A stretch of 26,225 nucleotides of DNA from a virus (IMGVR_UViG_3300045738_000385:1-26225), one strand, 5' to 3'. Positions 6,798 through 21,883 are shown, numbered from the stretch's first letter. Translations and numbers: made by a program. Notes: generated by a model from the letters alone, not told the origin.

Positions 6798-7364
6798 ATG
6801 GCTTTTCTCAGTAACATGCTTGGCGGCATGGACTTCTCGAGCCTGTACGGGAACATGGAGACCCAGCAGCAGCAGAACCAGCAGCAGTACTCCGGTCAGT
6901 CTCCCTGGAACAACTTCAGCAATTTCGGGTTGGGGTCAATGTGGGGAGGAGGTTCTGGTCAGAATCTTGGCCTGGGCAGTTGGGGTTCTCCCAGTTACTC
7001 CCCGTATGAAGCACCGTCATCTGAAAGCATTCAGGCGTCAGCCGCTAACCGGCAGATGCAGCAGCAGCAGCAGATGCAGCAGCAGCGGCAACAGGCGGAG
7101 CAGCAGAGGCAGCAGGGCATCGAACAGCAGCGGCAACAGAATCAGCAGATGCAGCAGGGAGGCCTGTCGTCGGGAATATCAGGGTTTGATCCTCTTGGCT
7201 CGCAGCGGCAACAGGCGCAGCAGATGCAGCAGATGCAGCAGATGCAGCAGCGGTCTGCTGCTGGTGGACTCATACCGTGGATGCAGCAACAGGCGCAGGC
7301 GCAGGCGCAGCCACAGCAGATGGATCGGTCCAGTATGCTCAATATGATCCAGGGACTTTTCTAG
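6798..7364 (+). CDS. Gln-rich low-complexity protein
   Basis: This 188-residue protein starts one base after the portal stop, with AGGAG upstream. The first 75 residues are Gly/Ser/Asn-rich. Most of the rest is Gln with interspersed Met and Arg, in tracts such as QMQQQQQMQQQRQQAEQQRQQ and QQMQQMQQMQQR. A short hydrophobic C terminus (SMLNMIQGLF) follows. It is predicted disordered and prion-like in composition. A second open frame on the same strand (6820-7347) results from the CAG repeats. No family is recognised. A virion or procapsid role is inferred from its place between portal and scaffold. Confidence 0.75.
   Translation: MAFLSNMLGGMDFSSLYGNMETQQQQNQQQYSGQSPWNNFSNFGLGSMWGGGSGQNLGLGSWGSPSYSPYEAPSSESIQASAANRQMQQQQQMQQQRQQAEQQRQQGIEQQRQQNQQMQQGGLSSGISGFDPLGSQRQQAQQMQQMQQMQQRSAAGGLIPWMQQQAQAQAQPQQMDRSSMLNMIQGLF
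7055..7255 (+). repeat. CAG-rich microsatellite, tandem 9-mers
   Basis: The DNA coding the Gln tracts is itself repetitive. CAGATGCAG is tandem at 7221-7229, 7230-7238 and 7239-7247. GCAGCGGCAACAGGC occurs twice, near 7083 and 7202. Such sequence is prone to slippage in multiples of three, so tract length may vary between relatives. Confidence 0.75.
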
Positions 7365-9589: not shown

Positions 9590-10512
9590 TGCCAGAAGAA
9601 CAAGTAGCTGTTGAAGAGGAAGTCCAGCAGGACGTTGTCGAGGACGTTGTCGAGGAAGTCGTCAAGGAGACTCCCTCTGAGATCCTCGAGGAAGAGCCTG
9701 TAATTGACATGTCGCCCCCGGATCCGGAACCGGAAGCGAAAGTGGAGGATGAGACAGGATTTCGCACTGACCAGTACGCAACAGGCTCCAAATTGGGATT
9801 CAGCCCGGAACAGGTGGATGCTTTCGGTACTCCCGAGAACTTCGACCGGATGCTGGGCGCGATGCAGCACAACGCACAACAGCAGCACTACCAACAGCAA
9901 CAGCAACAGCAGCAGTACCAGCAGCAGCAATATCAGCAGCAGCAGCCCGGTCCTGTTGGCAATTTCCAATTCCAGAACCCTGATGATTTCGATGAAGGAA
10001 TTGTCGGGATGAACAATCACATGAATTATCGCATGATGCAGATGGAGTCGATGCTGGGTGCAATGCACCAGCAGAGCGGTGCAATGCAACAGCAGAACGA
10101 ACGCCTCCAGGCAGAAGCGATTGGCCGTTCATTGGAATCCACATTGGATGGAATGGACGAAGATCTTTTCGGTCGTGGTTCCCTGGATTCACTTTCAGGC
10201 GATCAGGCCAAGAACCGGATAGCCGTGGCGAATGAATTTGCTCGCGCGGGAGCCGGTTACATGCAGCAAGGTTTGGAGGCTCCAAGTATTCCGGAGTTAG
10301 CCAAACACGCTGCGAACGCTTTGTTTGCTGACAATTTCAAAGACAAGGCATTGAAGGAGGCTTCCGAACAAACCCGAGATGTTGCCAGTCAGGCTTCGGC
10401 CCGACCCACGCAGCAGGAGGAATCCCCCGGTTCGGGGACGGAAGCCGCAATTCGTGCCGCAGCCGAATGGCATCGGGAGCATGGAACAAATGCCCACGAT
10501 GCGTTCGGGTAA
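9589..10512 (+). CDS. Capsid assembly scaffolding protein
   Basis: This 307-residue protein organises capsid subunits into the procapsid and leaves before maturation. It sits directly upstream of the capsid gene. The N terminus is highly acidic (EEEVQQDVVEDVVEEVVKE and on). A Gln/Tyr tract lies at about residues 95-125 (HYQQQQQQQQYQQQQYQQQQ). A helical, Met/Gln-rich region and a helical C terminus with basic residues follow. Acidic N terminus, helical body and gene order are typical of T7 gp9-like scaffolds. The Gln tract is unusual. The start is at TAATG with the previous gene. Confidence 0.8.
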   Translation: MPEEQVAVEEEVQQDVVEDVVEEVVKETPSEILEEEPVIDMSPPDPEPEAKVEDETGFRTDQYATGSKLGFSPEQVDAFGTPENFDRMLGAMQHNAQQQHYQQQQQQQQYQQQQYQQQQPGPVGNFQFQNPDDFDEGIVGMNNHMNYRMMQMESMLGAMHQQSGAMQQQNERLQAEAIGRSLESTLDGMDEDLFGRGSLDSLSGDQAKNRIAVANEFARAGAGYMQQGLEAPSIPELAKHAANALFADNFKDKALKEASEQTRDVASQASARPTQQEESPGSGTEAAIRAAAEWHREHGTNAHDAFG

Positions 10513-12775: not shown

Positions 12776-13150
12776 ATGGATGAACGGACGCGAGAACGCA
12801 TGGAGATCATGAACGGTGGGCCACTTCCCCCTGCTGCCGTGAGCCTCTACAACCAAGTTGTGACCATGTGCGAGAGAATCCACGGTCCATCAGAGTTGTC
12901 AACAATGTTGTCGGCTTTGATCTTGGCTATGCCCCGTGTCCAGGCTCCGGTGGAGCCACGACCGGGTCCATCCTCTGGGTCTCGGTCCTTGACCAAGGAG
13001 GATGCGGGTCGGGAGTTCCGTAGAAACGGTTCGGTCGGCACGTTTGTCGGTCGTGGCCCACGGGGTTTTTACAAGGTTGTCATTGACGAAGAAGAGCTTC
13101 TGTTGAATCCGGAAGTCTTCAGCAAGGAATGCGAGTTGATTGATGGCTGA
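12776..13150 (+). CDS. Hypothetical protein before the adaptor
   Basis: This 124-residue protein begins MDERTRERMEIMNGGPLPPA. The N-terminal half is helical, the middle (PVEPRPGPSSGSRS) is a flexible linker, and the C-terminal 50 residues (SVGTFVGRGPRGFYKVVIDEEE) look like a small beta barrel. I recognise no family. It starts immediately after the previous stop and overlaps the adaptor gene by 8 bases, so the three genes 12602-14150 are probably translated together. A minor virion or head-completion role is inferred from position only. Confidence 0.65.
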   Translation: MDERTRERMEIMNGGPLPPAAVSLYNQVVTMCERIHGPSELSTMLSALILAMPRVQAPVEPRPGPSSGSRSLTKEDAGREFRRNGSVGTFVGRGPRGFYKVVIDEEELLLNPEVFSKECELIDG

Positions 13151-14150
13151 ATCCACCCTGAGTCTGTCTTTCGAGGACTTGCGGGACGCGGTCTACGAAT
13201 ACCTACACGGCGGTGACGGTAACCATTCCGGTGAATCGGACGCCAACCGCAAGGGGCTTGTTGACCGGATTGTCTATTCCGGGCTGCGTCAATTCTACAA
13301 GCCGCCCCCGGTAGGTGGCCGGATTCACGACTGGTCATTCCTGATGCCGGTCACCACGCTCTCGATCAATGCCCCGTACACCACGGGGACGATAGCCGCC
13401 ACGAACGGTGTGGTCACGCTCAGTGCCGGGACATGGCCGACGTGGGCGGCGAGCGGGATGATCGAGATCAGCGGCACGGACTACTCGGTCGCCACCAGGA
13501 CCAGCGATAGCCAGTTGATTCTGGGTGACACGAGTTCCGGTTCCGACGTTGATGCCAGCACGGCGTACAACCTTCATCAGGATGATTACGACTTACCGGA
13601 CGACTTCGGCAGGATCTTGGGACCGTTCACTTTCGCTCAGTCTGACAACGCATGGTATACCACCAAGGTGGTAGGCGAGGCTCGTATTCGTGAGTTACGT
13701 CAAAGGGGCCGCTCTGGTAGCGGCGACCCGCAATTCGCAGCGATCCGTGCGAAGACGTTTACCGCATCGACGGGTACACGGCAGGAGGTACTCTTCTGGC
13801 CGCAGATCACGTCCTCCGCGACGGTGACGTACAAGTACCGTGTCCGACCGAACAAGCCAACATCGACCGGGCATGACGACGTGACCGGCGACTACCTTTA
13901 CGGTGGCAGTGATCACTCCGAGACAATCCTGTACTCGTGTCTAGCCGAAGCGGAACGTCGGCTGGAGGACGAGAAGGGTGTGATGTGGGCACGTTTCCAA
14001 GAGTGCTTGGCCTCGTCTGTCATGTTCGACAGCCGTGACAACCGTGCCGAGCATCTTGGCTACAACGGCGATGACTCTGACGGAATTCCAGTCTTCAACC
14101 GGAACCGTCAATTTCTGTATAGTGGGCAAGTCACCTACAAAAACGAGTAG
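13143..14150 (+). CDS. Head-tail adaptor (T7 gp11-like)
   Basis: This 335-residue protein would join portal to tail tube, as tubular protein A does in T7. The call is supported by a helical start (FEDLRDAVYEYL) with RIVYSGLRQFYKPP, and a YDLPDDFGRILGPFTF motif. The helical C terminus (LAEAERRLEDEKGVMWARF) and placement before the nozzle gene agree. Residues about 80-145 (13379-13578) are an inserted beta-rich module (TTGTI, WPTWAASG, STAYNL). The same module occurs twice in the nozzle gene. ATG 13143 overlaps the previous gene. Confidence 0.75.
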   Translation: MAESTLSLSFEDLRDAVYEYLHGGDGNHSGESDANRKGLVDRIVYSGLRQFYKPPPVGGRIHDWSFLMPVTTLSINAPYTTGTIAATNGVVTLSAGTWPTWAASGMIEISGTDYSVATRTSDSQLILGDTSSGSDVDASTAYNLHQDDYDLPDDFGRILGPFTFAQSDNAWYTTKVVGEARIRELRQRGRSGSGDPQFAAIRAKTFTASTGTRQEVLFWPQITSSATVTYKYRVRPNKPTSTGHDDVTGDYLYGGSDHSETILYSCLAEAERRLEDEKGVMWARFQECLASSVMFDSRDNRAEHLGYNGDDSDGIPVFNRNRQFLYSGQVTYKNE

Positions 14151-14167
14151 CGAGAAGGAGTAGATCA

Positions 14168-14392
14168 ATGTCTGAAAGACACAAGATGCAGGATGCGTCG
14201 GGCGTGGTGGCTGAGACAGCGACCGGAGAAGCTATCATTGTGGCTGGGACAGATCTCTCGGTCCACGAGGGAAAAGCCGGGTACGCCGTTGGTTGCCTTT
14301 TTATTCACACCGATGGTGCAGCCGGGTCTGCTCTTTACGTCAACGAGGGAACCAGCACGACTTCAAACTTCGATGAAGTCGGCACTATCTGA
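14168..14392 (+). CDS. Small beta-type structural protein
   Basis: This 74-residue protein begins MSERHKMQDASGVVAETATG, with GAGAAGGAG before the start. The second half (GYAVGCLFIHTDGAAGSALY then VNEGTSTTSNF) is a beta-strand pattern I associate with small phage structural proteins near the adaptor. A capsid or tail cementing role is possible but not shown. It is followed 16 bases later by another small structural-type gene. Confidence 0.65.
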   Translation: MSERHKMQDASGVVAETATGEAIIVAGTDLSVHEGKAGYAVGCLFIHTDGAAGSALYVNEGTSTTSNFDEVGTI

Positions 14393-14408
14393 TCGAAGGA
14401 GGTGATCT

Positions 14409-14807
14409 ATGGTTTCTTCGGTAACGACATCCTTGGCGGATCTCGGCAACACCGTGTTCGGCGGTGGCGGTCAGAAGTTTGCGTCTATTTCAGCGGCCCA
14501 GGGTGGTACAAGAGTAGTAGTCGCGGCTGTTACAGAAACAGTCGATGCAGTGGTCGTGGCTACCGGCAAGATCCGTGTCTTGGCTCTAGCAGTGACCCAG
14601 GCGGCTAATGCCTCAGCAACATTCGAGTTCAAGCAGGGCAGCACCGCCGTCATGGGCGTAGTTGCTTCTGTTGCACAGACTACGCTCGTGTTGCCCTTCA
14701 ATCCGGCTGGTTGGTTTGAAACGGCTGCCGGGGCGGCACTGAATGTGACCGTTGCCGGAACGAACCTTACTGGCTGTCTGGTGTATGAAGAAGTGGCTGG
14801 TACTTAG
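14409..14807 (+). CDS. Ala/Val-rich beta structural protein
   Basis: This 132-residue protein begins MVSSVTTSLADLGNTVFGGG. A perfect AAGGAGGTGAT ribosome site points to high expression. Alternating Val/Ala/Thr strands (TRVVVAAVTETVDAVVVATG, RVLALAVTQ, TTLVLPFNPAGWFETAAG) suggest a beta sandwich like many phage decoration or tail proteins. A family name cannot be given. It contains no signal peptide. It is likely a virion component because it lies between adaptor and nozzle genes. Confidence 0.65.
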   Translation: MVSSVTTSLADLGNTVFGGGGQKFASISAAQGGTRVVVAAVTETVDAVVVATGKIRVLALAVTQAANASATFEFKQGSTAVMGVVASVAQTTLVLPFNPAGWFETAAGAALNVTVAGTNLTGCLVYEEVAGT

Positions 14808-14820
14808 GGAAGGGTGATGG

Positions 14821-17800
14821 ATGCCTCCCAAAAGGCGCAGCGTAAAGTTGCCCTTTCCAGTAAAGGGACTGAACGAATCGTATGGCTACGAGGACCAGCC
14901 AGACGGTACGACTGTCGATGCGCAGAACGTCCGCTCGTTTCCGGCGAAGTCCACTGAACCGTCCAGTGGCAACTCGAAGGCGAGCGGCAGGGCCAGGGGA
15001 GGCCAGCGTCCCGGCCTGAGCAAGTACGTCTCGACAGCCCACTCCAGCGACACGTCGATCCAGAATATCAGCCACATGGCGTATTCTGAGTTCACGCCGC
15101 TTCGTGGTCGAGGCCACTCGGTGATCCGCGAGGACGTTGGTGGCTCCTTCACCATCATCGACAATGCCGGTGAGGTTGTGTCGATCCTGGGTGTGGTCAC
15201 CGAGACCTACAACCTTGGACAGTGGGGTCGTGACGGCTTCGTCTACACTGCCTGCGTGGACACTAGCCACAAGCTAATCATGCGGAAGCACAACAGTGTC
15301 GGGACCAAGCAGTGGGACTGGATTGATGCTGGCTCTCCGCTGGTGCAGTTGGTGTCGGCCACCCGTCAAGTGGTGGGCATGACCGTCTTCGGTGACTACG
15401 TCTACGTCTGGGTCCGCAGCCTCAGCGGCGTGACTGGCGAGGCTATCTACCGGGTGAATACTTCCGATGGTAACTTGAGGGATGCCATTAGCGGAGCGGG
15501 ACTCACGGTGGATTACTGGCTGGTTTCCGAGGACCAGACGACCAACGACTTCAAGGACTTCTACCCGAGTACGGGCGAGACCGGGCAACTCATCAATATT
15601 ATGATGTCCGGGAACGGCATGCTGACGATGGCCTGCTACAACGACAGCGGAGCCACGGCCTCATCGAGTACGAAGTCCAACGTGATCAATTACGACGACG
15701 ACGCAACCGAGGTCAGGGATGCAATCATCGGGATGAGCCACCTGACCGCAGACAATGTTACGGTTGCTGGCGGTGATTTGAATACCACCACCCCGATGAC
15801 GATCACGTTTGCGGACAATCTGGCGACACAGGACGTGGCTGTTTTCGAGAGGACTGATTTCGGTGCGTACACCACCGGCACGATTGAATACGACCACACT
15901 GGTTCCGCCAATGAGCTTGAGGTGACATTGAGCGGTGGGGGAACGTGGCCTGCCTGGGCGGCAACCGGAGTGATCACCATTCTCGGTGTGGAATACACCG
16001 TGGATGCCAGAATCAGTACTACGATCCTGACCTTGGATTCGTCGAGTAACCCCGGCGCAGACGTTGCTGCCAGCACAGCCTACAGTCTTGCAGACGGTGT
16101 GTTCTCGATGACCACCGCCCGTGGCGACAAGGACAACAGCACGGTTGTCAGTATCACCTGGACGGGTTCGGTTACCGAGCGGACGTTCAAGTTGGCTCAC
16201 GATGGCCGCATCTCGGTGCAGGCAATCAACATCGAGAACGGCAAGCAGATGTTCTGCCGTGAAGTGCAGGAAGCCGGACTTGGTCATCAAACAACCGGCA
16301 CGATTGCATACGATCACACTGGCGGGGCAAACGAGAGGATGGTGACGTTGAGCGGTGCTGTCTGGCCGTCGTGGGCCGCGACCAGCGGGGTGCTGACCAT
16401 AAGTGGCGTGGAATATACAGTGGACGCGAGGATCAGTGACAGCATCATAACATTGACATCAGGGAGCAATCCTGGCACGGACGTTGCTGGCAGTACCAGC
16501 TACGTCCTGTCTGGTAGTTATGCTGTTGAAACTTATGACAGCCAGAGTGAGTTGGACATTGCAATGGACGAGTTGGGGAACATCTTCACCCTGACCCGTT
16601 CCAAGAAGGGCACGAGTTCTTACAGTTACGCTTTGTCCAAGACAGATTCAAGCGGTGATGCCGTATCTGCGTTCAATGATTCCGACAGGGAGAATGCCGG
16701 AACGATCCGTGCCATTTGCTATGACTTTATCGGTCGCCGTATCGGTGCGGTGGGAGGTAACGTCTACGGTAGCGGGGACTCGTTCGCCACGATCAATGCC
16801 ACCACAGCGGCTGAGATCAATACCCAGGATGCGGGATCTCCCGCACAAACCAACTGGAACTCCATCTACCAGGACGAGAAGGGTGGATTTCGGCTGTTCA
16901 AGAATAGCGCGACCGATTGCTGCATAAGGATGACGGAGGCGGTGACTCCCGCCTACGACTGGACTATCAGCCCAGCATTGCAGGGTGACAACTTACAGAC
17001 GGGTGCAGCCTGTGCAGCCTTCTACGCATTCAATCCACAGAACAGTCTTGCTGTTCGTCAGACGAAGCAAGTCGCAGTTGCCGGTGGCGTGGTCAGGGAG
17101 TTCGACTCCATCCAGTGGTACGACTTGGCGAGTGGCGGCGGGACCACGGGCAACCCGTCTCTTGATCCTGGCCGGGATGTGATCTTCTCTGCCCAGTTGG
17201 GTTCACGGCTGTACTTTGCCGATGGCGCGAATGAGAAGTACTACGATGCTGCTGACGGTGAGTTGAAGGCGTGGACAACTTCGGCAGGCACGTTGCCGCA
17301 GGACAACAAGGGTCGCAAGCCGACGTTGATCGAGAATTGGGGTGACCGGATCGTGATGGCCGGGGTGATCGGTGACCCTCACGAGTACTACATGAGCAAG
17401 AGTGGGGACGGCACGGACTGGGACTACAACCCGGTGACGGTGACGGTCACCCAGGCCACCTCTGGGGTCAACTCTCCTGCCGGTCGATCACCGGACGTGA
17501 TTCGCGCGATCATCCCCCTGAACGACGACGTGTTGATATGGGGATGTGACCAGTCCATCTGGGCGATGACTGGTGACCCGATGGAAGAGGGGCGGATCGA
17601 CAACATCGTCGATGGCGTCGGAATGCCTTGGGGTCGTCCGTGGTGCAAGGACATGACCGGCTCGTTCTACTTCTTCGGTTCCAAGGGTGGCGTGTACCGT
17701 GGAGCGGTTGGACAGGGCATCCAGAAGATCACGGTCGGCTCCATCGAGGAGCGGATGAACGACATCGACTTGGACAAGAACATCATCCGGTTGTTGTGGA

Positions 17801-18393
17801 ACGAGAGGGACCAGGGTGTTCACGTCTACGTCACCCCGCTGAACGCCTACACCGCCACGACGCATTACTTCTACGACATCCGTGCCAACGCATGGTGGCT
17901 GGACAAGTTCGAGACAACCAGCAGTAACCAGTACATCCACAACCCGAAGGAGGTCCACGTCTTTGACGGCCTGGACCCGGATGACCGGGTTATTCTGATG
18001 GGTGGCTGGGACGGGTTCGTGAGGAAGTGGGATCTCTCGTCATCGAATGACGACGGGAACGCCATAGACAGTTACGTTTACTTCGGACCACTGGTTTCCG
18101 AGAACTTAGGTCTGGTCAGGCTCAAGGAGTTGCGAGTCCAGTTGGGCAAGAACTCCAGCGACGTGACAGCATCGGTGTTCACAGGCGACAATGCCGAGGA
18201 TGCGTATGCTCAGACCAGCGCACATTTCACGTCCACGTTCACAGCGGGCCGGAATGTGTCCGAGAGGCGTAGGGCAACGTCCCACGCCATGTACCTGAAA
18301 TTGGGCAACAACACGGTTGACCAGAGGTGGACGCTGGAGAGAGCCGAAGCCGACATTGCCCTGACCGCAAGGAAGTTTGCGAGGATTTACTGA
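14821..18393 (+). CDS. Tail nozzle-like protein with duplicated inserted module
   Basis: This 1190-residue protein is probably the tail nozzle, the counterpart of T7 gp12. The N terminus has the expected SYGYEDQPDGTTVDAQNVRS and a GQRPGLSKY motif. Beta-propeller-type repeats are visible (WGDRIVMAGVIGDPHEYYMS, DDVLIWGCDQSIWAMTGDP, GSFYFFGSKGGVYRG, FDGLDPDDRVILMGGWDGF). Residues about 295-340 hold a NVTVAGGDLNTTTPMTITF segment. Residues about 351-425 and 491-566 are two copies of the module also found in the adaptor. The length exceeds T7 gp12 because of these insertions. ATG 14821 follows GGGAAGGGTGATGG. Confidence 0.8.
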   Translation: MPPKRRSVKLPFPVKGLNESYGYEDQPDGTTVDAQNVRSFPAKSTEPSSGNSKASGRARGGQRPGLSKYVSTAHSSDTSIQNISHMAYSEFTPLRGRGHSVIREDVGGSFTIIDNAGEVVSILGVVTETYNLGQWGRDGFVYTACVDTSHKLIMRKHNSVGTKQWDWIDAGSPLVQLVSATRQVVGMTVFGDYVYVWVRSLSGVTGEAIYRVNTSDGNLRDAISGAGLTVDYWLVSEDQTTNDFKDFYPSTGETGQLINIMMSGNGMLTMACYNDSGATASSSTKSNVINYDDDATEVRDAIIGMSHLTADNVTVAGGDLNTTTPMTITFADNLATQDVAVFERTDFGAYTTGTIEYDHTGSANELEVTLSGGGTWPAWAATGVITILGVEYTVDARISTTILTLDSSSNPGADVAASTAYSLADGVFSMTTARGDKDNSTVVSITWTGSVTERTFKLAHDGRISVQAINIENGKQMFCREVQEAGLGHQTTGTIAYDHTGGANERMVTLSGAVWPSWAATSGVLTISGVEYTVDARISDSIITLTSGSNPGTDVAGSTSYVLSGSYAVETYDSQSELDIAMDELGNIFTLTRSKKGTSSYSYALSKTDSSGDAVSAFNDSDRENAGTIRAICYDFIGRRIGAVGGNVYGSGDSFATINATTAAEINTQDAGSPAQTNWNSIYQDEKGGFRLFKNSATDCCIRMTEAVTPAYDWTISPALQGDNLQTGAACAAFYAFNPQNSLAVRQTKQVAVAGGVVREFDSIQWYDLASGGGTTGNPSLDPGRDVIFSAQLGSRLYFADGANEKYYDAADGELKAWTTSAGTLPQDNKGRKPTLIENWGDRIVMAGVIGDPHEYYMSKSGDGTDWDYNPVTVTVTQATSGVNSPAGRSPDVIRAIIPLNDDVLIWGCDQSIWAMTGDPMEEGRIDNIVDGVGMPWGRPWCKDMTGSFYFFGSKGGVYRGAVGQGIQKITVGSIEERMNDIDLDKNIIRLLWNERDQGVHVYVTPLNAYTATTHYFYDIRANAWWLDKFETTSSNQYIHNPKEVHVFDGLDPDDRVILMGGWDGFVRKWDLSSSNDDGNAIDSYVYFGPLVSENLGLVRLKELRVQLGKNSSDVTASVFTGDNAEDAYAQTSAHFTSTFTAGRNVSERRRATSHAMYLKLGNNTVDQRWTLERAEADIALTARKFARIY
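15871..16518 (+). repeat. Duplicated 225-bp module inside the nozzle gene
   Basis: Copies at about 15871-16099 and 16291-16518 encode matching beta-rich blocks. Both begin TTGTI, with WPxWAAT in the middle, then GVEYTVDARIS, and end in an SNPG..V..ST.Y.L pattern. A third, more diverged copy is in the adaptor gene at 13379-13578. The DNA of the two copies is also similar, so duplication within the nozzle gene was probably recent compared with the adaptor copy. Confidence 0.75.
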
Positions 18394-18866
18394 TGACCAG
18401 TACAGTTACAGCCGCCACGATGACGGTCACCCTCACCGAGACGATCAGCCTTAACGGGGTGGATCAGGGTGGGACGAACACGTTGACGATTGCCTCGGTC
18501 AATGAGGTGAGCAAGCGCATCGTGACTGCCACGACCACCGAGCAGATTATCTTGGCATTTGGGACGGCGGTTGCTGCTGGTCAATTCCTTGAAGACAAGG
18601 TCGTCTACATCCGCATCACGAATCTGGACGACACGAACCACGTTGGATTGATCTTCCGAAACGAGAACAACGATGAGTTCAGCGTGAAGTTAGATAAGGG
18701 ACAGTCCTTCATCTACAACGGCGATCTGGCCGGTGGCGTGGTGGACACGATGGATGCTGTGGACAATTCGGGCCTGACTACGAACACGTTTGGCGACTTG
18801 GTGGATATTACGGCTGATGCCGACACCGCATCCTGTGATCTCGAAATCTTCGTAGCGAGCATCTGA
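18393..18866 (+). CDS. Fibre-associated structural protein
   Basis: This 157-residue protein begins MTSTVTAATMTVTLTETISL. ATG 18393 overlaps the previous stop by one base, with GAGGA upstream. An in-frame ATG at 18327 lies inside the nozzle gene and is rejected. The centre (KRIVTATTTEQIILAFGTAV then DKVVYIRITNLDDTNHVGLI) and the later DLVDITADADTASCDLEIF are patterns typical of small phage structural proteins beside fibre genes. It looks like an all-beta fold. The exact role is unknown. Confidence 0.7.
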   Translation: MTSTVTAATMTVTLTETISLNGVDQGGTNTLTIASVNEVSKRIVTATTTEQIILAFGTAVAAGQFLEDKVVYIRITNLDDTNHVGLIFRNENNDEFSVKLDKGQSFIYNGDLAGGVVDTMDAVDNSGLTTNTFGDLVDITADADTASCDLEIFVASI

Positions 18867-21800
18867 TGACAACAATCAAAGGATTCGGCCAGGACCGACA
18901 GCCTCTTGAAATGCACGGGGCGGGTACGGCTGGAAAACGTAGACGTGGCCGGTCTCAGAGCAAGTTGGCTGGTCAGCACTCCACGTTCCGAGAGATCGGC
19001 GTGGGGACCAACGCCCCAAAAAAGGCCACCCACATTCTCAGGGAGACAGGCGGTGCGGGAGTCCTTGTCGAGCGGATCGAGACATCAATAGGTGGTGGTT
19101 CTTTCCAGGGCCGCAAGTCTCGTGGAACGGAGTCGGCGCGCACAGCGGTTGTAAGCGGGGACCAACTCCTGAGCGTCGAGGGCGTTGCCTACGTCGGGGA
19201 GAACAAGGGATACCAGTCGGCTGCTCGTATTGGATACGAGGTGGACGGTTCCGTGAGTGATGCGGCGGTTGGTGCGCCAACCCGCATGGTATTCAAGGTA
19301 GCGACCGGCACTGGCGTAGCCCTGGCCGAGAAGATGCGGATCACGAGTACCGGCAAGGTGGGCATCGGGATGAATGATCCATCCACGCTGCTGACCGTGG
19401 AAGGTGCAGTCACCCTCAAAGAACAATCCACAGCCGATGCGGATGTAGCAGCCTACGGTCAGGTGTGGGTCAAGACTGCCACTCCGAACCAGTTGTATTT
19501 CACCACCGATGCTGGTGACGACATCCAGATAACGAGCGGTACGGCCCTGGCGTCTGCCTCGCTGACCCAAGAAGAGGTGGAGGATTTCGCGGGAGCAATG
19601 GTCGCGAGCGGTGGAACCAAGACTGGGATCGCGGTGACCTACCAAGACGGCACGGGGGACATGGACTTTGTCGTGTCGGACCTCACCGTAACCAGCGACT
19701 CCGGTTCTACCGCGATGACACCGGGGGACACCTTGACGGTTGCTGGTGGAACGAACATTTCCACGGCGATGAGCGGGGACACCCTGACGATCAACCAGAG
19801 CGGTGGTGGCGAGGCGAACGAGTCTTCCTTCAAGACGATCTCGGTATCCGGCCAGAGCGACGTGGTTGCGGATGCTGACGACGACACATTGACGCTGGTT
19901 GGTGGGTCGAACGTGACGATCACGACGACTGCCGGAACCGACACGATCTCGTTTGCAGCGACTGACACCAATACAACTTATTCAGCGGGAGACGGACTTG
20001 ACATCTCAGGAACAACATTCTCGACCGACCTCAAATCCAACGGCGGACTCGTCATTGAATCTACAGAACTTGCTGTCGATCTTGGGGCGTCCTCCGTTAC
20101 AGGTACTCTTGGAGTTGGAGATGGCGGATCTGGACAGACCAGCTACACCAACGGACAACTCCTCATCGGAAACACCACCGGAAATACCCTGACGAAAACT
20201 ACTCTCACGGCGGGAAGCAATGTCACGATCACCAACGGAACCGGGACGATCTCAATCGCAGCCGCCAACACCACCTACACCGCAGGAGACGGACTCGACC
20301 TCTCAGGGACCACCTTCTCCACAGATCTCAAAGCTAATGGTGGGCTTGTCATCGAGTCTACCGAAGCCGCCCTCGATCTCGGAGCATCCTCAATCACAGG
20401 CACTCTTGCGGTTGGTGACGGAGGTAGCGGACAGACTAGCTATACCAATGGACAACTCCTCATCGGAAACACCACCGGGAACACCCTTGCCAAGGCCACA
20501 TTGACTGCCGGGAGCAACGTCTCGATCACGAACGGAACCGGCACGATCACCGTCGCCGCGACAGACACGAACACGACCTACTCGGCAGGGACTCTGCTCG
20601 ACCTCGCGACCACCACGTTCAACGTGGATCTCACTGAGGCTGCTGAAGCGGTGATGGCAAACGGCGACTACATCCTGTTCCTCGATGGCGGGGCCACCGG
20701 ATCGCATGCGAAAGAGGCGATTGCGGATGTGGCAACCCTGTTTGCCGGTGACGGGCTGACTGCTTCGTCTTCGGTGATGGCGGTCAACGTGGACGGTTCG
20801 ACCATCGAAACGAACTCTGATGCGATCAGGGTCAAGGACAATGGGGTCACGCTGGCAAAGATGGCTGGACTGACCAGGGGCAGCATCATCTACGGAGATG
20901 CGAGTGGAGACCCTGCGGCCCTGGGCGTTGGCTCCAATACCTATGTCCTGACATCTGACGGGACTGATATCTCGTGGGCATCAGCCGGTGGAGGCAGCGG
21001 GGACATAACCAGCGTGGTTGCCGGTGCTGGCATGACGGGTGGTGCGACCTCTGGTGCTGCCACACTGAATGTCATTGGTGGCGACGGCATCACCGCCAAT
21101 GCTGACGAGATCGAAGCAACGGTGGACGATTCCACCATCGAACTTAGCGCATCGGATGGCAGCGGGACCATCAGGGTCAAGGACAACGGGGTTACGTTGG
21201 CAAAGATGGCTGGGCTGACCAGGGGCAGCATCATCTATGGGGATGCGAGTGGAGATCCTGCGGCTCTGGGCGTTGGATCCAATACCTATGTTCTGACATC
21301 AGACGGGACGGACGTTGCGTGGGCATCAGCGGGTGGAGGCGGTGGCAGCGGTGATGTCGAGGCTGGCAGTACCTTCACCACCGCCGGGGTCATCATGGCC
21401 TGCGATGGTGACGACAAGACCATCGACGAACCCACCGCCTTACTGACCACCAACGGCCAGGGGATGACAGTCAGTGCGTCGTTGGCAACACCATTCCAAG
21501 TCGATTCCAGCACGAGGGACGGCAACTCCACGTTCAAGTTCACCACGGGAAGCGGCGCGGGAACCAACAACCAAGCGTCCATACAGCTAATTGCGCAGAC
21601 AGCGGCCAACGCAAACTTGTATCTCGGTGACACGGCCAGTGCAACCAAGGGCGGATTGAAGTACAAGAACAGCGGCGACTCCATGCAGTTGATAGCATCC
21701 GGTGCTGCCGTTCTGGAACTCGACTCAGCCAAAGTCGTGGAGTTCAAGATAGCAGAGGATGATGATAGCAGTGGGTCAGGCTATATAGGCGCATATAAGA

Positions 21801-21883
21801 TGCTGAAGATAAAGGTCAATGGGACTGAATATTGGCTTCAACTTTATGAAGAGTCTGGCGGCGGCGGCGGAGGATTTCCGTAG
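18866..21883 (+). CDS. Tail fibre / appendage with internal repeats
   Basis: This is a 1005-residue protein. The N terminus is basic. Residues about 85-185 contain the motif FQGRKSRGTESARTAVVSGD and a KMRITSTGKVGIGM segment, known from many phage tail-fibre proteins. The shaft is Thr/Gly/Ser/Asp-rich with two repeat families (residues about 371-570, and 654-712 with 769-827). A Gly-rich C terminus ends after KVNGTEYWLQLYEESGG. It probably trimerises and binds the host or carries adhesin parts. No Peptidase_S74 chaperone is visible. The start overlaps the previous stop (TGATG). Confidence 0.8.
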   Translation: MTTIKGFGQDRQPLEMHGAGTAGKRRRGRSQSKLAGQHSTFREIGVGTNAPKKATHILRETGGAGVLVERIETSIGGGSFQGRKSRGTESARTAVVSGDQLLSVEGVAYVGENKGYQSAARIGYEVDGSVSDAAVGAPTRMVFKVATGTGVALAEKMRITSTGKVGIGMNDPSTLLTVEGAVTLKEQSTADADVAAYGQVWVKTATPNQLYFTTDAGDDIQITSGTALASASLTQEEVEDFAGAMVASGGTKTGIAVTYQDGTGDMDFVVSDLTVTSDSGSTAMTPGDTLTVAGGTNISTAMSGDTLTINQSGGGEANESSFKTISVSGQSDVVADADDDTLTLVGGSNVTITTTAGTDTISFAATDTNTTYSAGDGLDISGTTFSTDLKSNGGLVIESTELAVDLGASSVTGTLGVGDGGSGQTSYTNGQLLIGNTTGNTLTKTTLTAGSNVTITNGTGTISIAAANTTYTAGDGLDLSGTTFSTDLKANGGLVIESTEAALDLGASSITGTLAVGDGGSGQTSYTNGQLLIGNTTGNTLAKATLTAGSNVSITNGTGTITVAATDTNTTYSAGTLLDLATTTFNVDLTEAAEAVMANGDYILFLDGGATGSHAKEAIADVATLFAGDGLTASSSVMAVNVDGSTIETNSDAIRVKDNGVTLAKMAGLTRGSIIYGDASGDPAALGVGSNTYVLTSDGTDISWASAGGGSGDITSVVAGAGMTGGATSGAATLNVIGGDGITANADEIEATVDDSTIELSASDGSGTIRVKDNGVTLAKMAGLTRGSIIYGDASGDPAALGVGSNTYVLTSDGTDVAWASAGGGGGSGDVEAGSTFTTAGVIMACDGDDKTIDEPTALLTTNGQGMTVSASLATPFQVDSSTRDGNSTFKFTTGSGAGTNNQASIQLIAQTAANANLYLGDTASATKGGLKYKNSGDSMQLIASGAAVLELDSAKVVEFKIAEDDDSSGSGYIGAYKMLKIKVNGTEYWLQLYEESGGGGGGFP
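19976..20575 (+). repeat. Two tandem ~300-bp repeats in the fibre gene
   Basis: Copy A (19976-20272, 99 codons) and copy B (20273-20575, 101 codons) each start TTYSAGDGLD or TYTAGDGLD. Both run through GGLVIEST, VGDGGSGQTSYTNGQLLIGN and TLTAGSNV. A partial third copy begins at 20576. Leucine codons inside are almost all CTC or CTT, unlike the TTG-rich surroundings. Confidence 0.85.
20825..21348 (+). repeat. Second pair of repeats in the fibre gene
   Basis: About 175-bp units at 20825-21000 and 21170-21348, with a 345-bp period, encode near-identical blocks (IRVKDNGVTLAKMAGLTRGS then IIYGDASGDPAALGVGSNTY). They are different from the 300-bp repeats upstream. The DNA copies differ mainly at third codon positions, which shows selection on the protein. 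Confidence 0.85.

Follow-up and report, generated by a model that had tools for sequence, protein, structure and literature searches.

The window analysed here is the whole 26,225 bp stretch of the IMG/VR virus record IMGVR_UViG_3300045738_000385:1-26225, from an uncultured short-tailed phage. It encodes a head-to-tail adaptor and a long-form nozzle-type protein, whose genes lie about 0.7 kb apart. A beta-rich module of about 70 residues occurs once in the adaptor and twice in the nozzle (Table 1). This module is an autonomous insertion domain, which is located at loops and has been gained repeatedly.

Table 1. Positions of the adaptor, the nozzle, and the module copies on the window.
Feature	Position	Strand	Basis or location
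Adaptor protein (head-to-tail adaptor, T7 gp11/SU10 gp11 type)	13140..14150	+	Pfam PF24175 and AlphaFold fold matches
Module, adaptor copy	13377..13574	+	Residues 80-145; first hairpin of the fibre-dock-type beta domain
Nozzle-type protein, long form, 1190 aa	14821..18393	+	C-terminal homology and low-confidence fold hits
Predicted extra beta-propeller of the long-form nozzle	15097..17040	+	Residues about 93-215, 455-485, and 575-740; interrupted by inserted domains
Module, nozzle copy 1	15868..16089	+	Residues 350-423; loop within a beta domain, which in turn interrupts the propeller
Module, nozzle copy 2	16291..16509	+	Residues 491-563; between predicted propeller blades

The adaptor, the nozzle, and their shared module

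The adaptor starts with the ATG of MAES at 13143. The Pfam model PF24175 (SU10_adaptor) matched adaptor residues 141-300 with 29.2 bits, above the curated cut-off of 27. The AlphaFold model, with a mean predicted local distance difference test score (pLDDT) of 76.7, matched the solved podovirus adaptors of VP1, Pa223, A4, and SU10 with VIA Z-scores of 10.6-11.4 (11.4 for 8zkk_B, 11.1 for 9k09_d, and 10.6 for 7z47_A). It shows the fold expected for the class, consisting of a helix bundle and a beta fibre-dock domain; SU10 gp11, T7 gp11, cyanophage A4, and VP1 share the same core and domain order. The solved adaptors match the core over about 200-230 amino acids (aa), whereas the window adaptor differs by an inserted barrel. 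The fibre-dock domain is responsible for tail-fibre binding in SU10 and P-SCSP1u (PMC9509320, PMC10575957).

The nozzle-type protein has no Pfam or PHROG match, and its short homologues L119 and L037 have none either, so these profiles miss the group. Its C-terminal 380 residues are homologous to the 525-aa proteins L045 and L048 (E = 3e-29), and L045 matches phrog_578, head closure Hc3 (5e-5), and phrog_3287 (4e-5). The viral fold matches of its low-confidence model include P22 gp10-type and stabilization proteins; a PDB search with the C-terminal profile returned chance matches only. Because of the link of the C-terminal homologue to the Hc3 PHROG and the P22 gp10-type fold matches, "nozzle" (T7 gp12/P22 gp10 class) would be the best name for this protein. 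Its AlphaFold model has a mean pLDDT of 45, with about 70-87 at residues 121-230. When the platform and the core propeller were sought in this model, a propeller was found at residues about 93-740 only. This propeller resembles those of the BamB/WD40/PQQ type (VIA Z 11-13, root-mean-square deviation (rmsd) 2.4-3.3, about 145-160 residues). The SU10 nozzle likewise has inserted domains, which lie between blades 2 and 3 of its propeller (PMC9509320). Elsewhere in the nozzle, residues about 299-348 (15715-15865; EVRDAIIGMSHLTADNVTVAGG...ATQDV) resemble another reusable tail beta domain, and a stretch of this type occurs twice in succession in L114.

A preliminary description, made from the DNA alone, had proposed that a single beta-rich module is shared by the two proteins, and the three copies are located where it placed them, within a codon or two. 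BLASTP analysis showed that the adaptor copy has 51% and 49% identity to nozzle copies 1 and 2, respectively (E = 3e-14 and 4e-13). The two nozzle copies share 69% DNA identity over 209 bp (E = 9e-18). A profile was also constructed from the adaptor modules of other phages only, omitting the nearest relatives of the window. It detected the nozzle copies at 86.4 and 75.7 bits, and 1000 shuffles of the nozzle gave at most 3.9 bits; profile comparison thus strengthened the similarity, and the three segments are one homologous module. Segments of simple composition, rich in Gly, Thr, and Ser, abound in tail proteins, and chance or convergence of such beta-rich sequence could be thought to explain the likeness. 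The shuffle comparison refutes this, and the E-values between the proteins and the same order of motifs in 147 relatives from viral contigs leave it practically no probability. The family profile (domain E < 1) revealed no further copy in the open reading frames (ORFs) of the window, including the fibre ORFs.

In the AlphaFold model, the adaptor module is predicted with a pLDDT of about 85-91 as a small beta-barrel of six strands (85-88, 91-94, 107-110, 113-120, 125-128, and 137-141) and a short helix (101-105). The barrel is set between core strand 71-76 and the strand starting near the Y-D-L-P motif. Structure prediction, which the preliminary description had named as a check, thus yielded a fold of good confidence for the adaptor copy, while the nozzle model is too poor to judge the nozzle copies.

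The adaptor module matched residues 490-563 of lambda gpJ (Z 7.4, rmsd 2.1, 63 residues, 18% identity). In comparison with T5 pb3, gpJ has an additional beta-sandwich within HDIV, at residues 483-569 (PMC10721106), and the OB domain described in an HDIV loop (PMC11101478) is probably the same segment. Like the adaptor module, this domain is located in a hairpin of a tail protein, and the T5 counterpart lacks it; however, there is no sequence match between the two. The likeness might be a lead, as a Z-score below 8 can reflect a common arrangement. A 124-residue chain of Arthrobacter phage Bridgette also matched (Z 6.4). The barrel of yeast Uba1 (Z 6-7) was considered as kin and set aside as a common small-barrel arrangement. 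No Pfam model matches the module, and the Pfam matches of 34 module members (E <= 1) include none of the Ig, FN3, and Big families.

Insertion sites in related phages and the wider module family

The adaptors retrieved through their nozzle genes, with no module as bait, include a module-less clade of 365-367 aa. In this clade, the hairpin is only a few residues long (TTTLTTVAG-TDTYQLS). One 1311-aa ORF (L054:2929-6861) contains five adaptor cores in tandem, four without the module and the last one with it. For the nozzle, 76 distinct homologues were gathered, about 30 of which are long-form and span the module region; the contigs are fragmented, and the nozzle alignment is shallow. Two copies are present in the window nozzle. 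Its orthologue in the nearest relative, L084 (same contig as L006), has copy 1 and lacks copy 2, and L011 and L085 have neither; no module was found in the other long-form nozzles of this set. L011 and L085 share 72-81% identity with the window nozzle in the main aligned segments, and have short loops at both sites (TDSGTLSGG at the copy 1 site). Since the relatives without the module show a short hairpin or loop at the same sites, the module in both the adaptor and the nozzle is an insertion in a surface loop. As a separate observation, the 365-367 aa adaptors of the short-nozzle clade (L119-L158) carry an extra N-terminal beta-rich stretch (AEEGNGQYSVNLTAAEM...) ahead of the core.

The module has also been used at other sites. 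L026 contains a second module at a second hairpin of the adaptor core, and L179, from a bacterial genome, also has two modules, with the second at this second adaptor site. In the last core of L054, one copy is nested in another, after TVTLA and ending before GGTFPAWA. In a second, distant phage group, the adaptor carries two forms of the module: residues about 60-135 are of the WPxWA form, and residues about 220-290 are of a divergent form. In the nozzle-like protein of this group, the divergent form is located in a propeller hairpin. Nozzle-like proteins with the divergent form are those of L039, L040, L049, L051, L056, L058, L059/L060, L066, L070, and L162; L065, L068, and L074 have a clean short loop instead. 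Profile-profile comparison of the module alignment with the divergent form, represented by four sequences, gave a probability of 97.6 and an E-value of 2.7e-12. Applied to the window, the divergent-form profile gave domain E-values of 0.0012 for the adaptor copy, and 0.015 and 0.86 for the nozzle copies. By the profile-profile comparison, the window form and the divergent form are one family. Because the divergent form is common to the adaptor and the nozzle-like protein of the second group, sharing of the module between adaptor and nozzle happened at least twice.

Module relatives also match the first ~75 residues of several tail-fibre or tail-protein PHROGs (phrog_24607, phrog_28473, phrog_1980, phrog_9922, and phrog_17834). 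L078, L071, and L162 match residues about 3-82 of such PHROGs, with E-values to phrog_24607 of 7.3e-7, 2.4e-5, and 4.9e-6, respectively; the divergent copies in L040 and L056 reach about 1e-8. The window copies themselves gave no direct match to the tail-fibre profiles at E 0.05. The window subtype differs from these domains in its WPxWA block and its internal position, rather than at the protein start. Residues 2-73 of the distal tail protein gp20 (PDB 23gd) also match the module profile, and their motifs follow the same order, although this is an N-terminal domain and the E-value is only 0.013.

The range of the module extends beyond phages. A genome scan with a 3-row alignment returned two matches, one of them in a giant bacterial protein. 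This frame of 17,015 aa (L163; G001:C2:33339-33770), from a bacterial metagenome-assembled genome in a record titled Kuenenia, contains a tandem pair of modules of the window form, alongside propeller-, leucine-rich-, and LamG-like stretches. Mostly weak members were found in 8 of the 294 genomes of its phylum, some of them in phage-type adaptors. Among cultured phages (50,697 phage records), tblastn with the adaptor, the nozzle, and the module identified nothing. The more typical module L061 gave three weak matches (E 0.2) in these records, and the divergent form gave none.

Origin of the nozzle copies

The module tree was based on 80 columns (short modules give few) and contains many open forks. 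The nozzle copies form one clade (96/91), and the window adaptor copy belongs to a separate supported clade of 23 rows (99/98). Forcing the nozzle copies into the latter was rejected (p-AU 0.0175, approximately unbiased test), which is moderate evidence, as the group was picked after the tree was seen. The nozzle copies are closer to some other phages' adaptor modules than to the window's own adaptor copy. Both contain a YDHTGGANE-like stretch that the own adaptor copy lacks, and the YDHTGG stretch is common to the nozzle copies and adaptors such as L021 and L010. Because the nozzle copies group together, outside the window's own adaptor clade, their source was probably the adaptor of another lineage.

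The preliminary description had suggested that adjacent tail proteins exchanged or duplicated a domain. Movement of an adaptor-type module into the nozzle gene agrees with the orthologues carrying no, one, or two copies; exchange between this phage's own adjacent genes does not agree with the tree. The module might still have passed directly from the adaptor gene to the nozzle gene of this phage and then been duplicated within the latter. The short distance between the two genes and the common clade of the nozzle copies would fit this, and the adaptor module could have been replaced afterwards. Against the rejected joint clade and the YDHTGG extension, however, such a direct transfer seems distinctly improbable.

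Comparison of the nozzle DNA of the window (14821-18393) with L084:7437-10796 showed a sharp mosaic. The segment encoding residues 270-485, which holds copy 1, is mostly 96-100% identical, with one 90-bp block at 92%. The match stops abruptly at the start of copy 2. Residues about 600-710 fall to 59-73% DNA identity, and the remainder is mostly at 79-98%. This mosaic is the pattern that segment recombination leaves. It could also be supposed that the barrel is a mobile unit of domain size, whose boundaries are fixed (YTTGT...Y-x-L), and that it is spread by a targeted route and not by rare illegitimate recombination. Targeted spread would explain the several different insertion sites and the copy nested in another. 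No target-site duplications were seen at the nozzle insertions in the DNA alignment, although divergence of the flanks could hide short ones. We regard a targeted route as very improbable.

We propose instead that the module is probably a self-contained beta-barrel of about 70 residues, which serves as an insertion domain in the surface loops of tail proteins and would leave the host fold undisturbed. Its standing place in this phage group would be the first hairpin of the fibre-dock-type beta domain of the adaptor. Related adaptor-type copies would then have been inserted into two loops of the extra beta-propeller of the nozzle by recombination. The donor of these copies was most likely another phage lineage, and copy 2 would later have been gained or lost once. 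The module would probably have spread by ordinary illegitimate or homologous recombination.

Possible role of the barrel and other features of the window

The added barrels may form a peripheral contact surface on the tail neck, for tail fibres or neighbouring subunits. We suggest this tentatively, on two grounds: the fibres of SU10 and P-SCSP1u are held by the domain in which the adaptor sites are located, and many fibre proteins begin with a domain of the module family. Docking of module to module with a fibre of the same phage received no support, as no copy was detected in the fibre ORFs of the window. The preliminary description had named contact between the two proteins or binding of sugar as possible roles. 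According to the former idea, the barrels of the adaptor and the nozzle touch and lock the two rings, so that the same module was selected in both. The module is indeed present in both proteins in the window and L084, and the divergent form recurs in both proteins of the second group (L039, L040, L051, L056, L058, L066, L162, and others). However, most long-form nozzles lack the module though their adaptors keep one, and modules are present in unrelated proteins as well. The fibre-dock loops do not form the contact between adaptor and nozzle in SU10 and P-SCSP1u, where the helix bundle and the platform provide it (PMC9509320, PMC10575957). This contact through other parts counts against ring locking, which we consider unlikely.

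According to the latter idea, each barrel binds a glycan or a protein of the host surface, and extra copies add avidity. The tail tubular proteins of phage OWB have been recorded as receptor-binding (PMC7241545). The family occurs at the start of the tail-fibre and tail-protein PHROGs, and in giant bacterial proteins that are apparently secreted. However, fibres usually have their N-terminus on the virion side rather than on the receptor side, and the 34 members examined gave no convincing match to a carbohydrate-binding Pfam family. A sugar- or receptor-binding role likewise seems unlikely. Since both adaptor sites are hairpins of the fibre-docking domain of T7/SU10-type adaptors, contact with fibres or neighbouring subunits would be the more economical guess.

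Several points weigh against the proposal that a loop barrel of adaptor type was inserted into the nozzle by recombination. The nozzle copies have a pLDDT below 50, and it is their identity of about 50% with the adaptor copy that suggests a barrel fold. A direct donor was not found; among adaptor modules, the closest are about 60-70% identical. Copies 1 and 2 are less alike (68%) than copy 1 is between phages (91%), so that copy 2 may have been either gained or lost. The bacterial copy shows that a tail neck is dispensable for the module. With these points considered, the insertion-domain proposal as a whole still seems probable to us.

Insertion domains of this kind are already known, and similar behaviour has been described for promiscuous Ig-like domains and shuffling in phage virion proteins (Smug et al. 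2023, PMC10684548), where small domains are common to unrelated structural proteins, with recent mosaicism. That study differs in stressing receptor-binding, neck, and lysis proteins rather than an adaptor-nozzle pair, and no Ig or FN3 match exists here. The behaviour of the present module family appears to be undescribed in the open-access literature searched, in which no description of the module in podovirus adaptors was found. It appears that a single spare part is fitted by phages to outer loops in several components of the tail. The close relatives with no, one, and two copies represent a case caught partway, in which a working tail protein is acquiring a structural domain. With the paired alleles, one can ask how an added barrel affects the tail machine, including fibre number, adsorption, and stability. 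Moreover, a tail domain that is widespread but unnamed now has a profile, by which adaptors, nozzles, fibres, and giant bacterial proteins are linked.

Repeats were also observed outside the module. The tail-fibre ORF at 18866-21883 contains two internal DNA duplications, 19920-20314 with 20223-20614 (73%) and 20825-20995 with 21170-21340 (90%). The ORF at 6798-7364 contains several imperfect short direct repeats (7052-7083 with 7220-7251 at 94%, and others), some of which are shared with 9891-9952. An imperfect palindrome of about 100 bp is located at 240-342, near the left end of the window.

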